37,863 nucleotides of DNA, from contig NKIM01000044.1 in NCBI GenBank assembly GCA_002255955.1, forward strand, positions 1 through 37,863, given 5' to 3'. This document shows positions 28,532-37,863 of this stretch, one piece after another (the first letter of the stretch is position 1; every line of letters starts with the position of its first letter). The notes beneath the pieces are model-generated. The model ran no database searches and had not been told where the DNA came from. It was given only the letters and a program-made list of their open reading frames with translations. The stretch is from Burkholderiales bacterium PBB2. GTDB taxonomy: Bacteria > Pseudomonadota > Gammaproteobacteria > Burkholderiales > Burkholderiaceae_C. A program made the position numbers and the translations under genes.

Positions 28532-28903
28532 GGGGCCGACTAGGTTTCGACGTGGGTGCGGATCCGGAGTAGGGCATGCCGAGCACCAGTCCGCTCGTAA
28601 AACCACTGGAAACAAAGTAACTGCAAACGACTCTACGTTCGCACTCGCCGCTTAATTGCGCGTGAGCTTCTCAACGGTTGGCCAATGGGCCGGGCTCAAG
28701 CCGCAAGGCTGAAAGCTGAGAAGTCATTCACATTGGCTGGTTGTCCGCCGGGTCACTCGGCAGGCAACAAGATTCAGTGACTGGCGGGAAAGTTAGCGTG
28801 CCGCTGCGCGAACTGACCGTGAGATTCAAATCAGACGGCTACGCATGTAGAACTGCCCGGTGATGGCTTGCGGACGGGGGTTCAATTCCCCCCGGCTCCA
28901 CCA
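28532..28903 (+). ncRNA. ssrA: Transfer-messenger RNA (tmRNA)
   Basis: 372-nt RNA that rescues stalled ribosomes and tags their products for proteolysis. The 5' end GGGGCCGAC pairs with CGGCTCCACCA at the 3' end to form the tRNA-like acceptor stem, with CCA encoded. A T-arm GGGGG-TTCAATT-CCCCC lies at the 3' end. The resume codon is GCA at 28623 and the tag reads A-N-D-S-T-F-A-L-A-A before TAA at 28653, ending in the ALAA degron. The region between the tag and the T-arm forms several pseudoknot-capable stems. The 3' end is the likely integration site of the downstream recombinase. Confidence 0.97.
28870..28903 (+). other. Probable attachment site (attL) in the ssrA 3' end
   Basis: The tmRNA T-arm and acceptor stem end, directly followed 183 bp later by a tyrosine recombinase gene pointing away, is the usual layout of an ssrA-integrated island. 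The exact core cannot be set because no second copy was found in the window. Confidence 0.45.
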
Positions 28904-29027: not shown

Positions 29028-29086
29028 TGCAGTAACTTTTGCAGTAACCTGAAAAAAGCACGCGATCTGCGTCAGGAGTTACTGCA
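29028..29086. promoter_or_regulatory. Repeated TGCAGTAAC sites before the recombinase gene
   Basis: TGCAGTAACT (29028-29037), TGCAGTAACC (29040-29049) and the inverse AGTTACTGCA (29077-29086, touching the ATG) form two direct and one inverted copy of a 10-bp site. They could be recombinase arm-binding sites or an autorepression operator. Confidence 0.45.
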
Positions 29087-30384
29087 TGGCTCGCAACCTG
29101 ATCCCCTCTGATCTGTCGATCCGGACCATCAAGCCGGGTGATCCCCGCAAGCGTCTGAGCGATGGCGACAGTCTGTATCTGCTTCTGTTTGTTCGCGGAG
29201 GCTCGCATGGCTGGCGTCTGGACTACAGCTATCAGGGGCGGCGCAAAACGCTGAGCTTGGGCACGTATCCGGATACTGGTTTGTCGCTGGCCCGGCAGAA
29301 GGCCGACGACGCGCGGCGATTGGTGGCGCAGGGTTTGGACCCCAGTGAGGTTCGGACGGAGGCCAAGGCCGAGGCCTCGCGTCAGCGCGAGGCGGAGTGG
29401 CGTGGCCACGCCGGTTTGCCGCCGATTGGATCGTTCGAGGCTGTCGCCCGAGAATGGTTGGATACGGTCCACCAGGCCAAGGTCAGTGAAGGGCATGCCA
29501 AGCGCACCCAGATTCGGCTTGAGCAGGATGCCTTTCCCTGGATCGGCAGGCGCCCGATAGGGGAGATTGAGCCACCGGAACTCCTTCAGTGCCTGCGGCG
29601 GGTCGAGGCGCGCGGTGCGATCGAGACGGCGCACCGGATCAAGCATGCCTGCGGCCAAGTCTTCCGGTATGGGATCGCGACGGGGGTATGCCGGCGTAAC
29701 CCGGCGGCTGACCTGCAGGATGCACTGAAACCGGTTCAAGTCAGCCACCATGCAGCGATCACGGAGCCGAAGTTGGTCGGAAAGCTAATGCGCGACATCG
29801 ACGCGTATACCGGGCAGCCCGTCACCCGGGCAGCCTTGCTTTTGTCGCCTTTGCTGTTGCTGCGCCCTGGCGAACTGCGACACATGGAGTGGGCGTGGAT
29901 CGACTTTGAAGGTGCAACTTTGACGGTGCCCGCGGTGACGATGAAGCGCAGCAAGGCAGACAAGGCGGGCGGGCCGCCTCACATCGTTCCGTTGGCATCG
30001 CAGTCGCTGCGAATCCTGCGGGAACTGCATGAGATCACGGGAGCCGGTCGATTTGTGTTTCCGGCGCTGACGACCCGGCAGCGGTGCATGAGTGACAACA
30101 CGGTGCGCAGCGCCCTGCGCAGGCTGGGCTACGGCAACGATGAGATGACGGCGCATGGCTTCAGGGCTACGGCGCGGACGATGGTCGCCGAGCGTCTCAA
30201 TGTGGCCGCTGAGATCATCGAGGCTCAACTCGCGCACGCCGTGGCTGACTCTCTAGGTCGCGCCTACAACCGCACGCAGTTCCTTGATCAGCGGAGGAAG
30301 ATGATGCAGTCTTGGGCGAACTATCTGGACAAGATCCGTAAGGGTGCGGACGTGTTGCCGTTGCGAAGCAATGGTGCGGCCTGA
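29086..30384 (+). CDS. Tyrosine recombinase, P4-type island integrase
   Basis: 432-residue site-specific recombinase. An N-terminal DUF4102-type arm-binding domain (about 1-95) contains RLSDGDSLYLLLFVRGGSH and SLGTYPDTGLSLARQKADDA. A core-binding SAM-like domain follows (about 110-200), then the catalytic domain with Arg260 (LLRPGELRHMEW), His357 and Arg360 (HGFRATARTM), His384 and nucleophile Tyr394 (AYNRTQ). All catalytic residues are present, so it looks functional. Overlap of the start codon with an inverted TGCAGTAAC site suggests self-regulation. It lies immediately beyond ssrA, the expected integration target. AGGAG sits five bases before the ATG. Confidence 0.95.
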   Translation: MARNLIPSDLSIRTIKPGDPRKRLSDGDSLYLLLFVRGGSHGWRLDYSYQGRRKTLSLGTYPDTGLSLARQKADDARRLVAQGLDPSEVRTEAKAEASRQREAEWRGHAGLPPIGSFEAVAREWLDTVHQAKVSEGHAKRTQIRLEQDAFPWIGRRPIGEIEPPELLQCLRRVEARGAIETAHRIKHACGQVFRYGIATGVCRRNPAADLQDALKPVQVSHHAAITEPKLVGKLMRDIDAYTGQPVTRAALLLSPLLLLRPGELRHMEWAWIDFEGATLTVPAVTMKRSKADKAGGPPHIVPLASQSLRILRELHEITGAGRFVFPALTTRQRCMSDNTVRSALRRLGYGNDEMTAHGFRATARTMVAERLNVAAEIIEAQLAHAVADSLGRAYNRTQFLDQRRKMMQSWANYLDKIRKGADVLPLRSNGAA

Positions 30385-30670
30385 GCGCAGAGCCTCGACT
30401 CTCTCGATTGATACTGGGCATTGCCGCTTGCGCTCTGGCCTGAAGCGAATGGCAGTAGTCAGCTAATTCCTGAGGGTGGCCGAGCTTTCGCTATCCAGCG
30501 ATTGCCGTCCTTCGGATTTCTGAGGGGGCCGTCAGCAAAGTGCCCAAAGCTGAAGTTCGTCGAACCTTGGTACCAGGCTGTCTCCTGTCATTCGTTTCAG
30601 GCCAGACCGCGAACACCTACCGCTAAAAAGCTGACCTTCGAACTGCGAATACCGATGCGGCAAAGCAGTC
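30385..30670. other. Gene-free stretch between island integrase and integron array
   Basis: 286 bp with no supported gene, no clear promoter and no recognisable attC. A plus-strand open frame crossing it runs through the attC at 30671 and into the antisense of the next gene, so it was not accepted. It may be decayed cassette or island DNA beyond the last attC. Confidence 0.5.
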
Positions 30671-30748
30671 GCTCAACGTTCGCCATGAGCGGCATGACGC
30701 GGCAGGCGAAGCCTGCTGCGGCGTGTCCGCTCGATGAATGGGTTAGAC
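30671..30748 (-). repeat. attC site of cassette 6 (array terminus)
   Basis: 78 bp. The right end on the plus strand is GTTAGAC (R''), the left end GCTCAAC, i.e. GTTGAGC on the cassette strand, which fits GTTRRRY. The arms GCGGCATGACGCGGCAGGC and GCCTGCTGCGGCGTGTCCGC fold back almost fully around GAA. It abuts the stop codon of the HEPN gene. Confidence 0.85.
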
Positions 30749-30749
30749 C

Positions 30750-31919
30750 TCACGCCGCAATCTCTTTAAACGATTCTGTTTCCGGGCGAACCGCATCCTG
30801 TGGCGCCAGGCAGTCCTTCAGAATTTCTGCCCTAATGCGCTCGGCTTCGCTGGATATGTTGTCTCCCTTCTCGTTCAACGTGAACGCGTACTGGTGTACT
30901 TGGGCCGAGCCGGGCAGCTTCTCTGGAAGGTGCGATACCGAAACGTTTGCATCTCTGACGTCAATCATGAACTTTCGCCCAGCAAATGCCGTTTCCGACA
31001 TCAGGAACGTCTTAAGCGTCTCGTGCATCCACTGATCCGGCGGTAGCAGCACTCGACTGCTCTCGTAGCTTGGTCGTTCTGCCTCTCGTTGCTTTCTCGC
31101 AATAGCAACCTTCTGGCGCGTCTCGTCGATGTTCAGCGACGCCAGGAACTTCTCTAGCTCCTCAATTGAAGAGACAGCGGCCACCACGTCTTCACGGGTT
31201 GGCTCCGCTCGTCCATGTGCCGCTTGATTGCGAAGGCGCCGCGTGTTCTCAAGTCTGTCTCGAAGGCCGGAGGGCAGCTCAATGCCATTGACCTCAAGAT
31301 ATCGAGCCGAGACAGGGAGCGATGATAGGTATCGATCCCCCATTCCCACCTTTGCTCCAAACTGAAGAACCGTCTTCTCAAGGTATGCGATTGCTGAGAG
31401 GAGTGCACCTAGCGGGTGAACCTTCCCCAGCTTTTTGAGGTTCTCCAGCTCCGAGTCGTTTGATGGCTCTCGCATCTTGAGCGCGATGAGATCCTTCTCG
31501 TCCGCGAATTGAGCGAGAAGTTCGTCGAAGTCTTGGCTGTAGTGTTGTTTGACAACGGACCGGAAAAACTCGAGAGCAACATTCATGTAGAAGATTGCAG
31601 TCAGTTCGTTCGGGGAACCAAATCGATGTTGGAGAGCGTTGCGTTCGTCAATAAGTAATTCCAACTTGTTCAAGAAAGGAACGGCGATCTTCTTTGTCGC
31701 GAGAAGCTCGATGCATCCATGTATGGTGATCGTTTCCTTCGGGTTCTTGTAAATCGACTCGCCGCTGTCAAGCACCATATCCTTGAGTAGCAGTTCGACA
31801 GAGTTGGAGAGGTGGAGGATCACCAACTTCCTGTCGAGTTCACTCGTACCATTGAAGTGGGTGATGGAATGCCCGAGAAGTTCCATCGAGCTTTGGAAGA
31901 GTGGAGATTCGATCGCCAT
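30750..31919 (-). CDS. Cassette 6: protein with two HEPN-like RNxxxH motifs
   Basis: 389 residues, no signal peptide or membrane helix. I do not recognise a named family. Two helical segments each contain the R-N-x3-H signature of HEPN RNases: R93-N-A-L-Q-H98 in LLIDERNALQHRFG and R230-N-Q-A-A-H235 in TRRLRNQAAHGR. The N-terminal helix LHLSNSVELLLKDMVLDSG also resembles HEPN-type domains. HEPN proteins are metal-independent RNases, common in toxin-antitoxin, abortive infection and CRISPR systems. No antitoxin-like partner is in the cassette. The C-terminal 120 residues are unassigned. The stop codon lies one base from the attC, and the leader after the previous attC is about 50 bp with only a weak ribosome-binding site. 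RNase activity is inference. Confidence 0.75.
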   Translation of the reverse strand: MAIESPLFQSSMELLGHSITHFNGTSELDRKLVILHLSNSVELLLKDMVLDSGESIYKNPKETITIHGCIELLATKKIAVPFLNKLELLIDERNALQHRFGSPNELTAIFYMNVALEFFRSVVKQHYSQDFDELLAQFADEKDLIALKMREPSNDSELENLKKLGKVHPLGALLSAIAYLEKTVLQFGAKVGMGDRYLSSLPVSARYLEVNGIELPSGLRDRLENTRRLRNQAAHGRAEPTREDVVAAVSSIEELEKFLASLNIDETRQKVAIARKQREAERPSYESSRVLLPPDQWMHETLKTFLMSETAFAGRKFMIDVRDANVSVSHLPEKLPGSAQVHQYAFTLNEKGDNISSEAERIRAEILKDCLAPQDAVRPETESFKEIAA

Positions 31920-31968
31920 CGCGTTCTTTCTATTTGACGTGCTCGGTGCGCAAGCCGTATCCCATGAG

Positions 31969-32079
31969 GTCTAACGTTTTAGTTAACTGGCATGCGACAG
32001 AGTGACGACGCCGGGCGAAAATGAAATGAAGCCCAAAGCCCGTGCGCCGCAAAACGTCCGGTTGAGTGAATGGTTAGGC
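31969..32079 (-). repeat. attC site of cassette 5
   Basis: 111 bp from GTCTAAC (R' as GTTAGAC on the cassette strand) to GTTAGGC (R''). Arms TAGTTAACTGG and CCGGTTGAGTGAA give the L boxes; the central stem is imperfect. The apical region holds AATGAAATG, also found in the cassette 1 attC. Confidence 0.85.
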
Positions 32080-32111
32080 AGCACCGCCACCCACTCTGCA
32101 TGCCGGGTCAT

Positions 32112-32354
32112 TCAGTAAAGCTTCCATTCGCCACGGGAAGACTCCTCAGCCGGCCGTACGAGCTTGCGATCTCGTAGCTTGGTACATGCCCACCGCATGT
32201 CGTACTGCCAAGTGAAGAACATGTCGCCAGAGGCCCGCAAATCCTGCTCGTGATGCTTCCACAGATGCTGCGCAACTTGAACAATGTTGCTGCTGCCTCC
32301 ATTGGCGCGGAGTGCGTCAAGTACCCACTTCTGTAGATCGTCTCGATTAGCCAA
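32112..32354 (-). CDS. Cassette 5, second gene: small helical protein, function unknown
   Basis: 80 residues if started at TTG 32354 (M-A-N-R-D-D-L-Q-K-W), which has AGGAG five bases upstream. GTG at 32360 overlaps that site and is less likely, and the frame stays open to 32588 across the first gene. The sequence is helical with ALRANGGSSNIVQVAQHLWKHHEQD, then WQYDMRWACTKLRDRKLVRPAE and a short GEWKLY end, which looks like a winged-helix fold. It lies about 45 bp after a zinc-ribbon-like gene in the same cassette. DNA or RNA binding is a guess from the predicted fold. Confidence 0.7.
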   Translation of the reverse strand: MANRDDLQKWVLDALRANGGSSNIVQVAQHLWKHHEQDLRASGDMFFTWQYDMRWACTKLRDRKLVRPAEESSRGEWKLY

Positions 32355-32400
32355 GTTCACTCCTATGTTTGTCGCTGGAATCCGCGATGTGGCTTTCCGC

Positions 32401-32634
32401 TCAATAAGGTATTCCTGCCGCCCCTGTTTGGCAGTTGGGACACTTCCGCTGGAAGATGTCCGTCCCGTTTGCGCCGTAGACGTGGCTGCAATCCGCTCGC
32501 ATACAGACCATGCGATACGAGACTTGGCCATGATCAGTTCCGGGCACGCCTCGATGGCCGGTGCACAGTTGGTGGTTCCTGTTGACATAGCCGACTTGCG
32601 TGGTGTCGGTATTCCCGCTGGTGAACAGTTGCAC
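32401..32634 (-). CDS. Cassette 5, first gene: small zinc-ribbon-like protein
   Basis: 77 residues starting at GTG 32634 with AGGGAG five bases upstream. The pattern GYVNRNHQLCTGHRGVPGTDH followed by paired cysteines (C-x4-C, then CPNC) and DIFQRKCPNC suggests a zinc ribbon. It resembles a small conserved family of uncharacterised proteins I recall from proteobacteria with a near-identical GTDH and FQRKCP pattern; this could not be verified here. The start codon lies 17 bp from the previous attC. It probably works with, or is only co-transferred with, the gene that follows. Confidence 0.75.
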   Translation of the reverse strand: MQLFTSGNTDTTQVGYVNRNHQLCTGHRGVPGTDHGQVSYRMVCMRADCSHVYGANGTDIFQRKCPNCQTGAAGIPY

Positions 32635-32650
32635 TATTTCTCCCTGTGCT

Positions 32651-32776
32651 GCCTAGCGTTTGAGCTAAGCGGGCGACAGCGGCAGGGTGCCGGGCCCGCG
32701 AGGCTGATGATAAGCATGGCAGCCTCGCGGGCCCGGTGCCCTGCCGATGGTGCTCCGCTTGAGCGATGGGTTAGGC
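32651..32776 (-). repeat. attC site of cassette 4, altered R' core
   Basis: 126 bp, the longest in the array. The right end is GTTAGGC, but the left end is GCCTAGC, so the cassette-strand R' reads GCTAGGC instead of GTTRRRY. Long arms (CAGCGGCAGGGTGCCGGGC and GCCCGGTGCCCTGCCG) pair well. The altered crossover core may reduce excision of cassette 5's left boundary. Confidence 0.85.
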
Positions 32777-32785
32777 AGCAACACG

Positions 32786-33295
32786 CTACTTGCGCTCAAC
32801 GCCCTTCTTGCAGACGGCTGAAAACTTCCTCTTATCGGCTCGCAAATAGCGGTTGTCTATTGGCTCACCGCCCAGTTCGTATTCGCTAGTGTCAACGGAA
32901 TAGATCTTGAGCGCCCCGAGCTTGCCACCTTGGGTGGTGCAAGCTCTAGACCATTCCAGCGAATGACCGAGCTTACAAGTGAACGATTGGGGCTCGAATG
33001 GCTCGATTACCGTACATGAGATCTCGTTTGGATCCCATTTGCAGTCGGCCCAGCGGGCCTGCGAGTCTGCTGCGCTGTACAAAGCCCAGAACAGACTCGT
33101 ATCGTGTTTGGTCTTTCCCACGTAAGCCTTGTACTGTGTGCTCGCATCTGGTGAAGTTGTCGCGGGCGCTACCGCGTCGGTCGTAATTGCAAACGCCACA
33201 CAGGACCGCTGCGACAGAAGCTGATACTCGGTGTAACCAGCTTCGCAATCTGATCCAAAGAGCAGAGATAGGGAGTACACAAAAAAGCGGCGCAC
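32786..33295 (-). CDS. Cassette 4: uncharacterised Cys-containing protein
   Basis: About 169 residues from GTG 33295. The frame extends further right but crosses the attC at 33302, so the start must lie after it. A hydrophobic N-terminus (RRFFVYSLSLLFGSDC) may be a signal or anchor segment. The body is soluble-looking with six further cysteines, including WADCKWDPNEISC and FTCKLGHSLEWSRAC, suggesting disulfides, and ends SAVCKKGVERK. No family is recognised. A second in-frame GTG 15 bases downstream is an alternative start. Expression would come from the integron promoter. Confidence 0.65.
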   Translation of the reverse strand: MRRFFVYSLSLLFGSDCEAGYTEYQLLSQRSCVAFAITTDAVAPATTSPDASTQYKAYVGKTKHDTSLFWALYSAADSQARWADCKWDPNEISCTVIEPFEPQSFTCKLGHSLEWSRACTTQGGKLGALKIYSVDTSEYELGGEPIDNRYLRADKRKFSAVCKKGVERK

Positions 33296-33301
33296 GTTGC
33301 T

Positions 33302-33370
33302 GCCTAACGTTTGACATGAGAGGCATGACCCGGCTTGCCGGGGCATGTCCTCTCGATGGAAGGGTTAGGC
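33302..33370 (-). repeat. attC site of cassette 3
   Basis: 69 bp, GCCTAAC to GTTAGGC. Arms TGACATGAGAGGCATGAC and its partner GCATGTCCTCTCGATGGA pair around CCGGCTTGCCGG. It differs from the cassette 2 attC at only a few positions, mostly in matched pairs. Confidence 0.93.
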
Positions 33371-33377
33371 ATCGCCG

Positions 33378-33683
33378 CTAGATGAATTGCTTTACCAGCC
33401 AACCGAAGGCTAGGACCATGAGAGGGGCAAAGAAAGCCTTGGAAGCAATGACACCAATGACTTCACCGATTTCGGCGTTCGCATAGCGCTTCTCGTCATA
33501 GTCAATTCGAATCAAAACCTGCAGAGTAAGTGTTAGTCCAATTGCGGCGGGAATTGAAAGACTTGGCAGCGAAAACACTGGAACAACGAACCAACCCCAA
33601 AGAATTGAAAGAGCAAGCCCACTCACTATGGGTGCTACTACAAAGAGGGCGATGACGAGAACTACCAGACCCGTAATGGCCAT
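33378..33683 (-). CDS. Cassette 3, second gene: small membrane protein
   Basis: 101 residues with three or four hydrophobic segments: TGLVVLVIALFVVAPIVSGL at the N-terminus, LSILWGWFVVPVFSL, AAIGLTLTLQVLI, and a C-terminal AFFAPLMVLAFGWLV. A short soluble loop (RIDYDEKRYANAEIGE) lies between them. No family recognised. The ATG at 33683 has GGAAG upstream. The stop codon is 8 bp from the attC, and the other membrane protein gene ends 30 bp upstream, so the two form a mini-operon inside one cassette. Confidence 0.75.
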   Translation of the reverse strand: MAITGLVVLVIALFVVAPIVSGLALSILWGWFVVPVFSLPSLSIPAAIGLTLTLQVLIRIDYDEKRYANAEIGEVIGVIASKAFFAPLMVLAFGWLVKQFI

Positions 33684-33713
33684 GCAATTTCTTCCTTGAT
33701 CAAAGGCGTTGGT

Positions 33714-33923
33714 CTATTGCTTCGGAGGCTTCCAGAATGAACCGGCAAGCACGAATGATGCTGCCCAGGCTGGTAAGGTGACTAACAAACAGAGAACCCC
33801 TACTACAGCCCAGACGGCCCCGACATTGTTTGTCCAGTTTGGTGACAAGAAGGCTGCTCCGATTCCCGCTGTCGCTACCAGAGCACCTAGCCACCAAAGA
33901 ACTTGCCCAAGGCGAAAAAGCAT
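33714..33923 (-). CDS. Cassette 3, first gene: small two-helix membrane protein
   Basis: 69 residues, MLFRLGQVLWWLGALVATAG then a polar NWTNNVG hinge and AVWAVVGVLCLLVTLPAW, giving two membrane helices with a C-terminal SFWKPPKQ. I chose ATG 33923 because GGAGGAGGAG lies directly before it; an upstream TTG at 33938 sits within that site. The 80-bp leader after the attC is longer than in the other cassettes and holds TTTTCACTG-type sequence but no assignable promoter. Function unknown. Confidence 0.75.
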   Translation of the reverse strand: MLFRLGQVLWWLGALVATAGIGAAFLSPNWTNNVGAVWAVVGVLCLLVTLPAWAASFVLAGSFWKPPKQ

Positions 33924-34002
33924 TTTCTCCTCCTCCAAGATATAAGCACAGTTTTCACTGTGGGGTTCTTGCGGCGCTGAGTCCAGCTGAACCGACTGCG
34001 AT

Positions 34003-34071
34003 GCCTAACGTTTGACATGAGAGGCTCGACCCGGCTTGCCGGGGCGAGTCCTCTCGATGGAAGGGTTAGGC
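34003..34071 (-). repeat. attC site of cassette 2
   Basis: 69 bp, GCCTAAC to GTTAGGC, a near twin of the cassette 3 attC. Where that has GCATG/CATG in its arms this one has GCTCG/CGAG, so pairing is preserved. Confidence 0.93.
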
Positions 34072-34090
34072 AGCACCTCTCGTTGTACTT

Positions 34091-34606
34091 TCAGTTGGGG
34101 CATTGGGACAACAGCGCGCCGATGCGACCTTGGTATACCTGCCGAGAGCTTGCGGACTCCATGACCTTCTGTTTGATAAGTGCATCGCCGACCTTGGTGG
34201 CCGCAAATGACTCCAACTGCTTGTACTCAGCGTCGCTGAACTCAGGAAGTGAGGCCGGCAGGGGCATACCAACCTGTTGATAGATCTGAAGCGTCCCGTG
34301 CTGAACGTACTTTTTTCCCACCTTGCTAGCGAAGAAGCTCTCGGCTACTTGCAACTCAGAAGGCGTTACATACTGAGACAGCAACTGGTCGACTACATCA
34401 GAGAAGGCGCTAGGCGTGAGTGCGGCAACGCACTGACCGCGAACTTCAGATGCTTTGCCCGCTTTGACGGCGCGGGCGATAGATAGCTTCATGCCGACTA
34501 GAGCTGGCTCGGCGAAGGCCGCTATCGTTGACGGGGCTGGCGACTGGCATAGGGCTGAAGTTACGAAGCCCGTAAGGATGGCATAGAGGGCAAAGTGGAT
34601 ACGCAT
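34091..34606 (-). CDS. Cassette 2: exported DUF2059-like protein
   Basis: 171 residues from ATG 34606, the first ATG after the attC. A signal peptide (RIHFALYAILTGFVTSALC, then QSPAPS) is followed by a helical domain. TPSELQVAESFFASKVGKKY and SDAEYKQLESFAATKVGDALI resemble the E-L-x-x-x-x-x-F-x-x-S-x-x-G-K-K pattern of DUF2059, repeated twice. Two cysteines near the ends (RGQC, LSQC) could pair. Likely periplasmic; function unknown. The frame continues upstream into attC sequence and that part is not coding. Confidence 0.72.
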   Translation of the reverse strand: MRIHFALYAILTGFVTSALCQSPAPSTIAAFAEPALVGMKLSIARAVKAGKASEVRGQCVAALTPSAFSDVVDQLLSQYVTPSELQVAESFFASKVGKKYVQHGTLQIYQQVGMPLPASLPEFSDAEYKQLESFAATKVGDALIKQKVMESASSRQVYQGRIGALLSQCPN

Positions 34607-34614
34607 CTTGTGCT

Positions 34615-34726
34615 GCCTAACGTTTGAGCTAACCGGACCGTTGCGGTATGTGGCTAAAGGCCCAGAATGAAATGGCGGGCCTTTAGCCGCATGCCGCAAT
34701 GGGTCCGGTTGAGCGAATGGTTAGGC
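34615..34726 (-). repeat. attC site of cassette 1
   Basis: 112 bp, GCCTAAC to GTTAGGC. Arms TTTGAGCTAACCGGACC and GGGTCCGGTTGAGCGAA, then GCGGTATGTGGCTAAAGGCCC with GGGCCTTTAGCCGCATGCCGC, form a long imperfect hairpin with apical AATGAAATG. Confidence 0.93.
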
Positions 34727-34738
34727 GTCACCGCCAGA

Positions 34739-35263
34739 TTAAGGGACATAGGAAATGAGCGGCTTGTCGTAGTAAAGCCCGGCTAGGTTGGTAGTTGCCT
34801 GCTCCTCTGGAAGGACTCTAAGCTGGTGGTCACTGGACTTCATGGAAGAGGTTGAGTACGCGGAAGAGCCGACAAACGTAAGCCCGTGTAGATTTTCAAC
34901 TTTCCTGGTGAGCTCCAGGAAATACCTCCGGCCTGCAACGACCTCGATCTTTGCTTCTGAATCCCACGCTGCTGACAAGAAGAACTGCGGGTCCATCCTG
35001 GTTCTGAAGGTGTATGAACCTGGAGAAACCCTGACCACAGTGAAAGTTCCGTTTGTTAGGTTGGCCACCACCTTGTCATCAATGAGGACGTTAGGCCAAA
35101 CTCCTTTTCCCAGAGGGTGCGGCGTTCGCAAGATGTAAACCAAAGCGTGAGTCGAACTGGTCGGCTCTACAGTTGAGAACTGAAGACCACTCGGCGCAGG
35201 GACGGAGGCGCACCCAGCCATGAATGTTGCAACGAGAGCGAGTACTAGACGACGAGTATTCAT
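34739..35263 (-). CDS. Cassette 1: DUF2846-like lipoprotein
   Basis: 174 residues. The N-terminus MNTRRLVLALVATFMAGCAS is a lipoprotein signal with lipobox M-A-G-C (Cys18). The body has HALVYILRTPHPLGKGVWPNV cut by the usual linker, LIDDKVVANLTNGTFTVVRVSPG and YTFRTRMD, matching the DUF2846 pattern (YxxR ... G-K ... L-x-x-G ... PG-x-y). I chose ATG 35263; the frame extends right into attI sequence. Being the first cassette next to attI, it should be the best expressed. Likely anchored in the outer or inner membrane; function unknown. Confidence 0.75.
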   Translation of the reverse strand: MNTRRLVLALVATFMAGCASVPAPSGLQFSTVEPTSSTHALVYILRTPHPLGKGVWPNVLIDDKVVANLTNGTFTVVRVSPGSYTFRTRMDPQFFLSAAWDSEAKIEVVAGRRYFLELTRKVENLHGLTFVGSSAYSTSSMKSSDHQLRVLPEEQATTNLAGLYYDKPLISYVP

Positions 35264-35292
35264 GGTGAAAGCGAGACAGTAGTGAATGTGAC

Positions 35293-35399
35293 GCCTAACG
35301 TGTTGTCGGGATGCGAAGAGCAGGACATCCACCCCTGCGCGGCGCAGTTTGTGCCGCGCAGGGGGTTCGAGGCGCATTCTGCAGGGCTAACCGGTTAGG
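35293..35399. other. Putative attI region with hairpin
   Basis: GCCTAAC at 35293-35299 gives the GTTAGGC crossover site where cassette 1 begins. Beyond it lies a perfect 12-bp stem (35332-35343 with 35353-35364, 9-base loop) and the palindrome CTAACCGGTTAG (35387-35398), which offers two opposed GTTAG motifs. Position between first cassette and intI fits attI. It could instead be an attC-like relic, since the ends are only partly complementary. Confidence 0.55.
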
Positions 35400-35412
35400 G
35401 GCGCATGGGCGC

Positions 35413-35441
35413 TTGCACTGTCGTGATGAGTGCGCTAGGCT
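35413..35441 (+). promoter_or_regulatory. Promoter of intI
   Basis: TTGCAC (35413-35418), 17 bases, TAGGCT (35436-35441): a plausible sigma-70 promoter with ideal spacing, about 25 bp before the intI start. The LexA box overlaps the -10. Confidence 0.6.
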
Positions 35442-35455
35442 GTATGAAAACACAG
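35440..35455. promoter_or_regulatory. LexA box (SOS operator) of intI
   Basis: CTGT-ATGAAAAC-ACAG is a perfect CTGT-N8-ACAG LexA site, placed over the intI -10 region and about 10 bp before the start codon. SOS control of integron integrases is established for class 1 and Vibrio integrons. Confidence 0.88.
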
Positions 35456-35465
35456 TCGCCATGTG

Positions 35466-36545
35466 ATGGTCTCCCTGCCTGCCCCACCGCCTGTGCCCGC
35501 TGCCGATGGGGATGGCTGGGCGGGTGTGCCGCAGCCGCCTCGGCGCTTGCTGGATCAGGTGCGGGATCGGTTGCGTTATTTGCACTACAGCTTACGGACG
35601 GAGGAGGCCTACGTCCATTGGGCCCGGGCGTTTGTCCGCTTCCACAGCCTGCGTCACCCGCGCACTCTGGGTCAGGCCGAGGTGGAGGCCTTTCTCACCT
35701 GGCTGTCGGTGGACCGCGGGGTGTCGGCCGCCACGCATCGGCAGGCCTTGTCGGCGCTGCTCTTCTTGTACCAGCAGGTGCTGGGCCAGCGGCTGCCCTG
35801 GATGGACAGCTTGGCGCGCCCGCAGCGCAAGCCCCGGCTGCCGGTGGTGCTGTCGGTGGACGAGGTGCGGTGCGTGCTGGCCTTGTTGGAGGGCGGGCAC
35901 GGCGTGCTGGCCCGTTTGCTGTACGGCACCGGCATGCGCATCACCGAGGCCTTGCAGTTGCGCAGCAAGGACGTTGATTTTGAGCGCCAGGTCATCGTGG
36001 TGCGTTGTGGCAAGGGTGGCAAAGACCGCGTGGTGATGCTGCCCGCCGCCCTGGCACCGGCCCTCAAGGCCCAGCTGCAGCGTGCCCACCTGCTGTGGCG
36101 CGCCGATGGCGCTGTGGGGCATGCCGGCGTGCAGTTGCCCGACGCGCTGGCCCGCAAGTACCCGCGCGCCGAGCTGTCGTGGGCCTGGTTCTGGGTGTTT
36201 CCGCAGGCCGATCTGTCGGTGTGCCCGCGCACCGGGGTGGTCCGGCGCCACCACCTGTTTGACCAGACCTTCCAGCGCGCCTTCAAGCGCGCGGTGGATC
36301 AGGCCGGCATCCAGCGGCCGGCTACGCCGCACACGCTGCGCCACTCTTTCGCCAGCCATGTGCTGCAGTCCAGCGGTGACTTGCGGGCTGTGCAGGAGCT
36401 GCTGGGCCATGCCAATATTGCGACGACCCAGGTGTACACCCGCCTGGACTTTCAACACCTGGCCAAGGTATACGATGCCGCGCATCCGCGGGCCCACCTC
36501 GGCGGGCAGCGCAAACCTGCGCCCAAGACTTCCAAGAAAACCTGA
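35466..36545 (+). CDS. intI: Integron integrase IntI
   Basis: About 359 residues. It is a tyrosine recombinase acting on attI and folded single-stranded attC sites. The catalytic set is Arg158 ([13 protein letters not shown]), His289 and Arg292 ([13 protein letters not shown]), His315 (LLGHANI) and Tyr324 (TTQVYTRLD). An IntI-specific insertion is present between Arg158 and His289 ([20 protein letters not shown] and [11 protein letters not shown]), which separates it from XerC/D. The frame is intact. ATG 35466 is used; GTG 35463 is equally possible, and no clear ribosome-binding site is seen. The first 30 residues are Pro-rich and the C-terminus is basic. It converges on the chemotaxis gene 33 bp downstream. 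Confidence 0.96.
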
Positions 36546-36578
36546 CAAATCCCTGGAGGAGCGCCAGTCCTTGGGCTT

Positions 36579-37863
36579 CTAGTGCAAAAGACCTGCCAGG
36601 CTCGGTCCCGAGGGGCGGCCACCGCCAAAGTGGCCGCCATCGCCGGGCAATTTGAAAACGGACACCGCTTCCACCTGGTCATTCGCCAGGCTTTTGAGGC
36701 TGGAGGCTGCCGCGGCCATTTCTTCCACTAAGGCGGCGTTTTGTTGGGTGGTGCGGTCCATATGGCCCACTGCCTCGCCGACCTGGGCCACCCCAGCGGC
36801 CTGCTCGTTGCTGGCAGCACTGATTTCACCCATGATATCGGTCACCCTGCGGATGGAGGTGACGACTTCCGTCATGGTGCTGCCCGCCCGGTCCACCAAT
36901 GCAGTGCCTTGTTCCACGCGCTCCACGCTGGCATTGATGAGGACCTTAATTTCTTTGGCCGCATCGGCACTGCGGCTGGCCAGCGAGCGCACTTCGGACG
37001 CTACCACGGCAAACCCACGGCCTTGTTCGCCGGCACGTGCTGCTTCCACCGCCGCATTGAGTGCCAGAATATTGGTTTGGAAGGCAATGCCATCAATCAC
37101 GCTGATGATGTCTGCAATCTTGCGGGACGAGTCGTTGATGCCTTTCATAGTCTCCACCACCTGACTCACCACCTGGCCACCCTGAATGGCCACAGTGGAG
37201 GCGTTCATGGCCAACTGGTTGGCCTGGCGCGCGGAGTCTGCGTTCTGGTTCACCGCAGAGTTCAATTCCTCCATGGACGCGGCAGTTTCTTCCAGCGCGC
37301 TGGCCTGCTGCTCCGTGCGATTGGAGAGGTCGTGGTTGCCCTGTTCGATCTCGGCGCTGGCAGTCGCCACGCCTTCAGAGCCGGCGCGCACGGTAGACAC
37401 GACCTCTACCAGGCTGTTTTGCATGTCTTTAAGGGCCGAAAGCATCATGGCGGTCTCGCTTTTGCCCTCACTGCGGATGACCTGGGTCAGGTCCCCGCCC
37501 GCCACATTGCGCGCAATGCTGACGGCTTGATTCAGTGGTCCTGTTACCGCCCGAATCAATGACCAACCAATGGCGCTACCACCCGCCAGCGAAATCAACA
37601 CGATGACGGCAAATGCAGCGATCCCCGTGGAGTAGCGCTGACTGGCAGCCTCATGCTCTAATTTGACCTCGCTCAATTGGTAGTTGATGAGCTTATCGAC
37701 TGCCCTACCGATGGGGACGATAGTCTCATCCAGGTCCCGGATGAGCAGCGATATCTTGTACATATCGTTCTTGGCAAGGGCTGCGCTGAATTCTTGGATG
37801 GAGGGAGTCGCGTTGGTAATCAAGGTTTTTACCTCGGCCACATTTTTTTTCTCTTGCTGAGAG
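36579..37863 (-). CDS. Methyl-accepting chemotaxis protein (5' truncated by window)
   Basis: At least 428 residues; the frame is still open at the window's edge, so GTG 37841 is internal and the N-terminus is missing. Visible parts: the end of a helical periplasmic sensor (four-helix-bundle type), one membrane helix [20 protein letters not shown], a HAMP segment, and a long signalling coiled coil. Its hairpin tip reads [33 protein letters not shown], split by the conserved E-x-G-R tip. Methylation-site regions flank it. The C-terminus is Gly-rich and lacks the CheR-binding pentapeptide. Base use looks like chromosome background rather than cassette DNA. The ligand cannot be told. Confidence 0.95.

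Follow-up and report, generated by a model that had tools for sequence, protein, structure and literature searches.

The locus described in the present work occupies positions 30671 to 36545 of a window, the whole stretch of DNA analysed, which is the entire contig C88 (37,863 bases) of the 5.48-Mb draft genome (90 contigs) of Burkholderiales bacterium PBB2. It is an array of gene cassettes with its own integrase gene, and the described systems to which it stands closest are the class 1 integrons and the sedentary chromosomal integrons, in both of which the integrase gene intI is divergent from the cassettes. The cassette adjacent to the attI site is the newest entry in such an array. The control of integron integrases by LexA is established (Cambray et al. 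2011, PMC3108266), chromosomal integrons are considered the likely source of resistance cassettes (Ghaly et al. 2021, PMC8352920), and HEPN proteins encoded on integron cassettes are proposed to be dormancy-inducing RNases (Anantharaman et al. 2013, PMC3710099).

The locus resembles a class 1 integron in the order of its attI site, cassettes and divergent intI, in the 63% identity of its integrase to IntI1, and in attC2 and attC3, two sites similar to one found with a dfrB cassette. It differs from a class 1 integron in that the integrase, at 63%, is far from near identity with IntI1, in that neither a qacE-delta/sul1 segment nor a resistance gene was read in the array, and in that its neighbours are chromosomal. 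With sedentary chromosomal integrons, such as the 59-site array of the genome designated here G028, it shares a chromosomal position, a divergent intI, the same attC architecture and attC1 itself, but it has only six cassettes, its attC sites belong to several families rather than being highly similar across the array, and its integrase stands apart from those of its own genus in a phylogenetic tree.

The explanation that we strongly favour is that of a complete chromosomal integron located beside an insertion hot spot at the tmRNA gene of a betaproteobacterium of the order Burkholderiales. The stretch is a real integron, to all appearance complete and probably still functional, with predicted SOS-type control, and its overall design is that of an ordinary, well-known kind of gene-capture device. 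Computation gives directly the components and the order in which they stand, as well as the LexA box, the folds of the attC sites and the identity of attC1. An original prediction had described a complete integron, and an intact IntI, a LexA box, an attI core, six attC sites and eight cassette genes were all found.

Recombination sites, integrase and control region

The attC sites were evaluated with a covariance model (R2) of 18 rows taken from other genomes and oriented by their intI genes, with the window's own genome excluded. It was derived from a first model (R1; 19 rows of 32 candidates from other genomes, with 94% of cells paired as against 15-46% in slid controls) by turning two rows that had been wrongly oriented (L016 and L027, whose intI lies on the minus strand) and dropping a third, L085, which lies downstream of its intI and whose orientation is undefined. 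R1 was used for the surveys of other genomes, for the G028 array and, alone, for the attC count in the window's own genome, and the E-values of both models are rough. At E<=10, R2 returned eight matches in the 37,863 bases of the window. Six of them are minus-strand sites scoring 42.8-65.5 bits, the other two are weak plus-strand mirror images of these sites (15.8 and 15.1 bits), and there is no further match in the window at that threshold; R1 gave the same six sites (34.3-59.8 bits) and five mirror matches. For each of the six the minus strand gives the higher score, so that they share one orientation. Counted from the attI end they are attC1 (34615-34726, 112 bp, 65.5 bits with R2), attC2 (34003-34071, 69 bp, 52.3 bits), attC3 (33302-33370, 69 bp, 51.8 bits), attC4 (32651-32776, 126 bp, 61.5 bits), attC5 (31969-32079, 111 bp, 44.9 bits) and attC6, which ends the array (30671-30748, 78 bp, 42.8 bits). 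The covariance model therefore kept every one of the attC calls in the original prediction. A simple pattern scan found four of the six, missing attC5 and attC6 and yielding one false match, and in its control one of 20 shuffled windows reached the score of a real site. The placing of all 32 attC candidates from other genomes on the minus strand was an effect of a sorting tie-break, since both strands fit the pattern, and is not used as evidence.

The integrase gene (35463-36545, plus strand, 360 residues) starts with GTG, directly followed by an in-frame ATG. Its product scores 419.8 bits against TIGR02249 (cut-off 265) and 452.3 against PRK15417 (cut-off 435), aligns over residues 30-328 with VchIntIA (IntI4, PDB 2a3v, E 2.8e-75), and over 310 aligned positions shares 63% identity with the IntI1 encoded by a Comamonas plasmid. 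Its catalytic motifs (R, K, H-R, H and Y) align with those of IntI1 and VchIntIA, and the IntI1 alignment includes the stretch after KYPRA, which marks integron integrases. The closest relative, the best of 8,000 scored candidates from a database of 5.8 billion proteins, is 79% identical, and at least 33 relatives among those candidates reach E<=1e-150.

In a quick, unrooted tree of 55 rows without an outgroup, which included 13 rows of the same genus and the genome's own second IntI, the window's IntI groups with integrases of other genera, apart from the same-genus rows and from that second IntI. The smallest starred set in which it falls comprises six rows, has a support of 98 and is otherwise made up of rows from outside the genus, the nearest rows by tree path are L028, L029 and L052, and the pattern of an integrase inherited with its host lineage was not found in this unrooted tree. 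An earlier tree with XerC as outgroup was set aside because the very long outgroup branch attached to the window's branch and distorted the tree; the grouping was unchanged when the tree was rebuilt without XerC. The contig of L029 (QEUZ01000054.1) is classified as Chloroflexi, but its IntI (75%) is Burkholderiales-like and is accompanied by five attC candidates, and the contig is probably mis-binned.

Seven bases ahead of the GTG start of intI lies a LexA box, CTGTATGAAAACACAG (35440-35455), which fits the pattern CTGTN8ACAG. In a survey for which 56 other intI loci were supplied, the genome's own second intI included, 50 passed the filter, and 33 of these 50 have the exact pattern within the 150 or more bases upstream of intI, compared with 0.36% of mononucleotide-shuffled upstreams. 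The SOS control claimed originally is thus predicted here as well from the box before intI. A putative attI site is also present beside intI, with its core GTTAGGC at 35293-35299 on the minus strand; at the corresponding position in eight aligned relatives, three have GTTAGGC (L028, L030 and L076), L029 has GTTATGC and four have neither.

Cassettes and the proteins they encode

The cassettes measure 612-1298 bp and have a G+C content of 51.5-57%, compared with 66% in bases 1-28500 of the window. Evidence on where they came from is provided by their attC sites. Over all 112 of its positions attC1 is identical to five sites in G028, a genome from another genus of the family, and R2 also confirms these five exact copies. 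The G028 array (contig C3, about 269.4-306.2 kb, within about 100 kb searched with R1) contains 59 distinct attC sites, all on one strand, of which 35 are at least 95% identical to attC1; a survey of 102 other sites, drawn from the genome of the window and from others of its genus and family, gave a best match to attC1 of 90%, in G013. No copy of attC1 was found on plasmids. Since attC1 is the attI-proximal site, its identity to the G028 sites suggests that cassette 1 was probably captured recently. Within the array attC2 and attC3 are 94% alike, while the best match of each of the other four sites is at most 71%. At 65 of its 69 positions attC3 agrees with the attC that a dfrB cassette carries in the class 1 integron of NZ_CP043574, a site that is also similar to attC2, and the differences among these three sites are complementary pairs on both arms. 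The original suggestion that the array is still active is supported, short of proof, by the identity of attC1 with sites in another genus, the mixture of attC families and the intact intI.

Eight minus-strand genes are distributed over the six cassettes, two of which carry two genes, in agreement with the original reading. One of them is c6 (30750-31919), the gene of cassette 6, which encodes a 389-residue tandem-HEPN protein with two RX4H motifs, predicted to be probably an RNase. Its N-terminal region has the helical fold of HEPN, and its second HEPN region is indicated by Pfam profiles only. The motif at residues 93-98 is present in 29 of 30 family rows (the remaining row being gapped) and that at 230-235 in 28 of 30, the other two having K for R. 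The protein is like the integron-cassette HEPN protein of PDB 3jrt in being a HEPN protein on an integron cassette, but the c6 family has two HEPN regions and, in its long form, a C-terminal strand-helix part. No match of the family to the PDB was found with a single sequence (E<=1) or a profile (E<=10); 3jrt is not among the matches, but the two may be related. The family is also like PDC-S19 of PADLOC, a label for single-gene phage defence candidates, in that 27 of its 30 members match the model PDLC04951 at E<=0.001, whereas the protein of the window aligns only over positions 9-141 of the 357 in that model. No paper with the name PDC-S19 was found in the literature library consulted.

The c6 family occurs in two of 320 other genomes of the class and in none of 378 others of the order, and it was not found in viral contigs. 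One of the two relatives in the class (G458) has its nearest attC match more than 3 kb away, and a relative in another genome (the L187 array) lies between two attC sites, which R2 confirms. In that same array a glyoxalase-family gene (L187:9578-9997) lies between two weaker attC matches. A tentative proposal, which we regard as doubtful, is that the family would represent widespread, undescribed single-gene tandem-HEPN RNases acting as integron-carried anti-phage defence, in which residues 1-112, a nearly invariant stretch, would combine with the second HEPN region into a composite RNase site that infection activates, and that the array, including the phage-moron-like c3b, may be a small store of defence genes reshuffled under SOS control.

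The remaining genes encode small proteins of mixed character. The product of c1 (34739-35263) is a 174-residue lipoprotein-like protein with a DUF2846 match (E 4.2e-10), and that of c2 (34091-34606; 171 residues) has a signal-peptide-like start, read by eye, and a weak DUF2059 match (E 6.3e-5) that scores just under the curated cut-off. Cassette 3 carries first c3a (33714-33923), an open reading frame for a 69-residue protein that looks membrane-like by eye and for which family scans gave no convincing family, and then c3b (33378-33683), whose product, a membrane protein of 101 residues, has a match at E 1.3e-10 to PHROG 2169, the membrane protein of a phage "moron". The 169-residue protein of c4 (32786-33295) belongs to a rare family, with seven relatives among 36 candidates in a large protein database, and when read by eye is probably exported. 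Cassette 5 carries c5a (32401-32634), for a 77-residue protein with the pattern CxxxxC...CxxC that appears zinc-ribbon-like by eye, followed by c5b (32112-32354), for an 80-residue protein with a faint Mrr_N-like match (E 0.015, below cut-off). Relatives of c5a are 66% identical in G141 and 48% identical on two plasmids; the G141 relative is followed directly by a fair attC but preceded by no more than a weak one, and for this reason is not counted as a proven cassette. A search of plasmid proteins gave no match for c1, c2, c3b, c4, c5b or c6, and no homologs of c1-c4 or c5b were found in the fetched loci of relatives, where the same array was not seen.

No match to a resistance family was found in Pfam or in NCBIfam, the latter scanned without the final frames of c5a and c5b and neither being a dedicated resistance database; within those libraries, the statement that no known resistance gene is present agrees with our result. 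The accompanying description of the cassettes as functionally unknown goes too far in the case of cassette 6, with its tandem HEPN regions, and in part in that of cassettes 1, 2 and 3.

Genomic setting and alternative explanations

The array ends 286 bp from a phage-type tyrosine integrase gene (29086-30384, plus strand), which adjoins the tmRNA gene (28532-28903, plus strand) and has a 95% identical copy in the same place in G009. Related integrases are present at the tmRNA gene in four of 13 relatives examined (G009, G005, G012 and G004), so that the site can be regarded as an insertion hot spot. The gene that follows tmRNA differs among relatives; in G003, G007 and G015 it is DHH-like by eye, and this gene is likely the native tmRNA neighbour in some relatives. 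It was not found in the window's own genome, in a search made without a positive control. The proximity of the tyrosine integrase to the array and its recurrence at tmRNA, taken with an attC-like stretch near the end of the G009 contig in the same orientation and with the place of IntI in the tree, among integrases of other genera and away both from the 13 rows of its genus and from the second IntI of the genome, are what would be expected if the integron were the cargo of an island inserted at tmRNA by its neighbour and moved within an integrative element. We consider this possible, if rather less probable than not, because a search with words of at least 12 bases found the tmRNA end nowhere again between tmRNA and the contig end, so that no right border is visible, the contig stops beside or inside an MCP gene, and the G009 stretch is without one R box.

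A different alternative is that the array is a relic, formerly active and now fixed, whose integrase is intact only through slow decay. It would account for several observations that weigh against a functional integron: the core of attC4 is GCT, found in four of 118 surveyed sites, instead of GTT, found in 102, so that cassette 5 may be locked to cassette 4; and the promoter Pc was not located, a scan of 30400-36600 confined to sigma-70-like consensus sequences having found none, compared with 2.1 expected by chance. The two ends of attC6 also pair poorly, as the outermost bases of the last attC in an array come from the old attI side. The full-length intI with its catalytic motifs, the retained LexA box and the identity of the attI-proximal attC to sites in another genus make a relic unlikely. 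Further points that weigh against the favoured explanation are that no second genome of the same species was found in which movement of cassettes between strains could be seen, that c3b, c4 and c6 each occur in none of 298 other genomes of the family, that the Pfam matches of the c6 protein itself lie below the Pfam cut-offs, and that the gene of cassette 1 was not found in the roughly 100 kb of G028 searched, from which it follows that the donor was probably a related array and not that of G028 itself. Both genomes are drafts, and the identity of attC1 could in principle have arisen by mis-assembly or contamination instead of cassette capture. This is very improbable: attC1 is flanked by genes on either side within a contig of 37.9 kb, the G028 array is in a 588-kb contig, contamination of the two genomes is 1.2% and 1%, and the gene that adjoins attC1 was not found in the G028 array.

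In the genome as a whole R1 detects 41 or more attC sites, spread over 12 contigs (E<=0.001), a count that is a lower bound because the whole-genome scan scored 150 of 12,208 candidates. A second complete intI, on contig C51 (L138), is 65% identical to the first and is likewise accompanied by attC sites and an exact LexA box. Partial IntI matches occur near contig ends at G000:C60:664-819 (63% identical) and G000:C48:2-256 (48%), and may be fragments, edge-cut genes or other recombinases. The MCP gene at the end of the window (36579-37863) has a G+C content of 59%, compared with 66% in bases 1-28500, and no match to it at E<=1e-150 was found in 17 genomes of the same genus.

Proposed working and implications

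The manner in which the integron would work can be outlined from its parts, and it is from sequence that we infer LexA binding, recombination and cassette expression. LexA would repress intI, and DNA damage or incoming single-stranded DNA would lift the repression. IntI would then recombine attI, at its GTTAGGC core, with the bottom strand of a folded attC, so that new cassettes enter first. By this route cassette 1 was probably captured, its source being a large chromosomal integron like that of G028, and the remaining cassettes would derive from several sources. The payload is a varied set of small proteins together with a single tandem-HEPN protein, which is most likely an RNase and would stop growth under phage attack or stress.

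A chromosomal array in Burkholderiales is here seen to use an attC nearly the same as that of a dfrB resistance cassette. The integron also allows two ideas to be tested: that small, mixed arrays are filled from the large chromosomal arrays of other genera, for which attC1 links one cassette to one type of donor, and that integron cassettes carry defence genes, for which cassette 6 offers a testable family of tandem-HEPN proteins.

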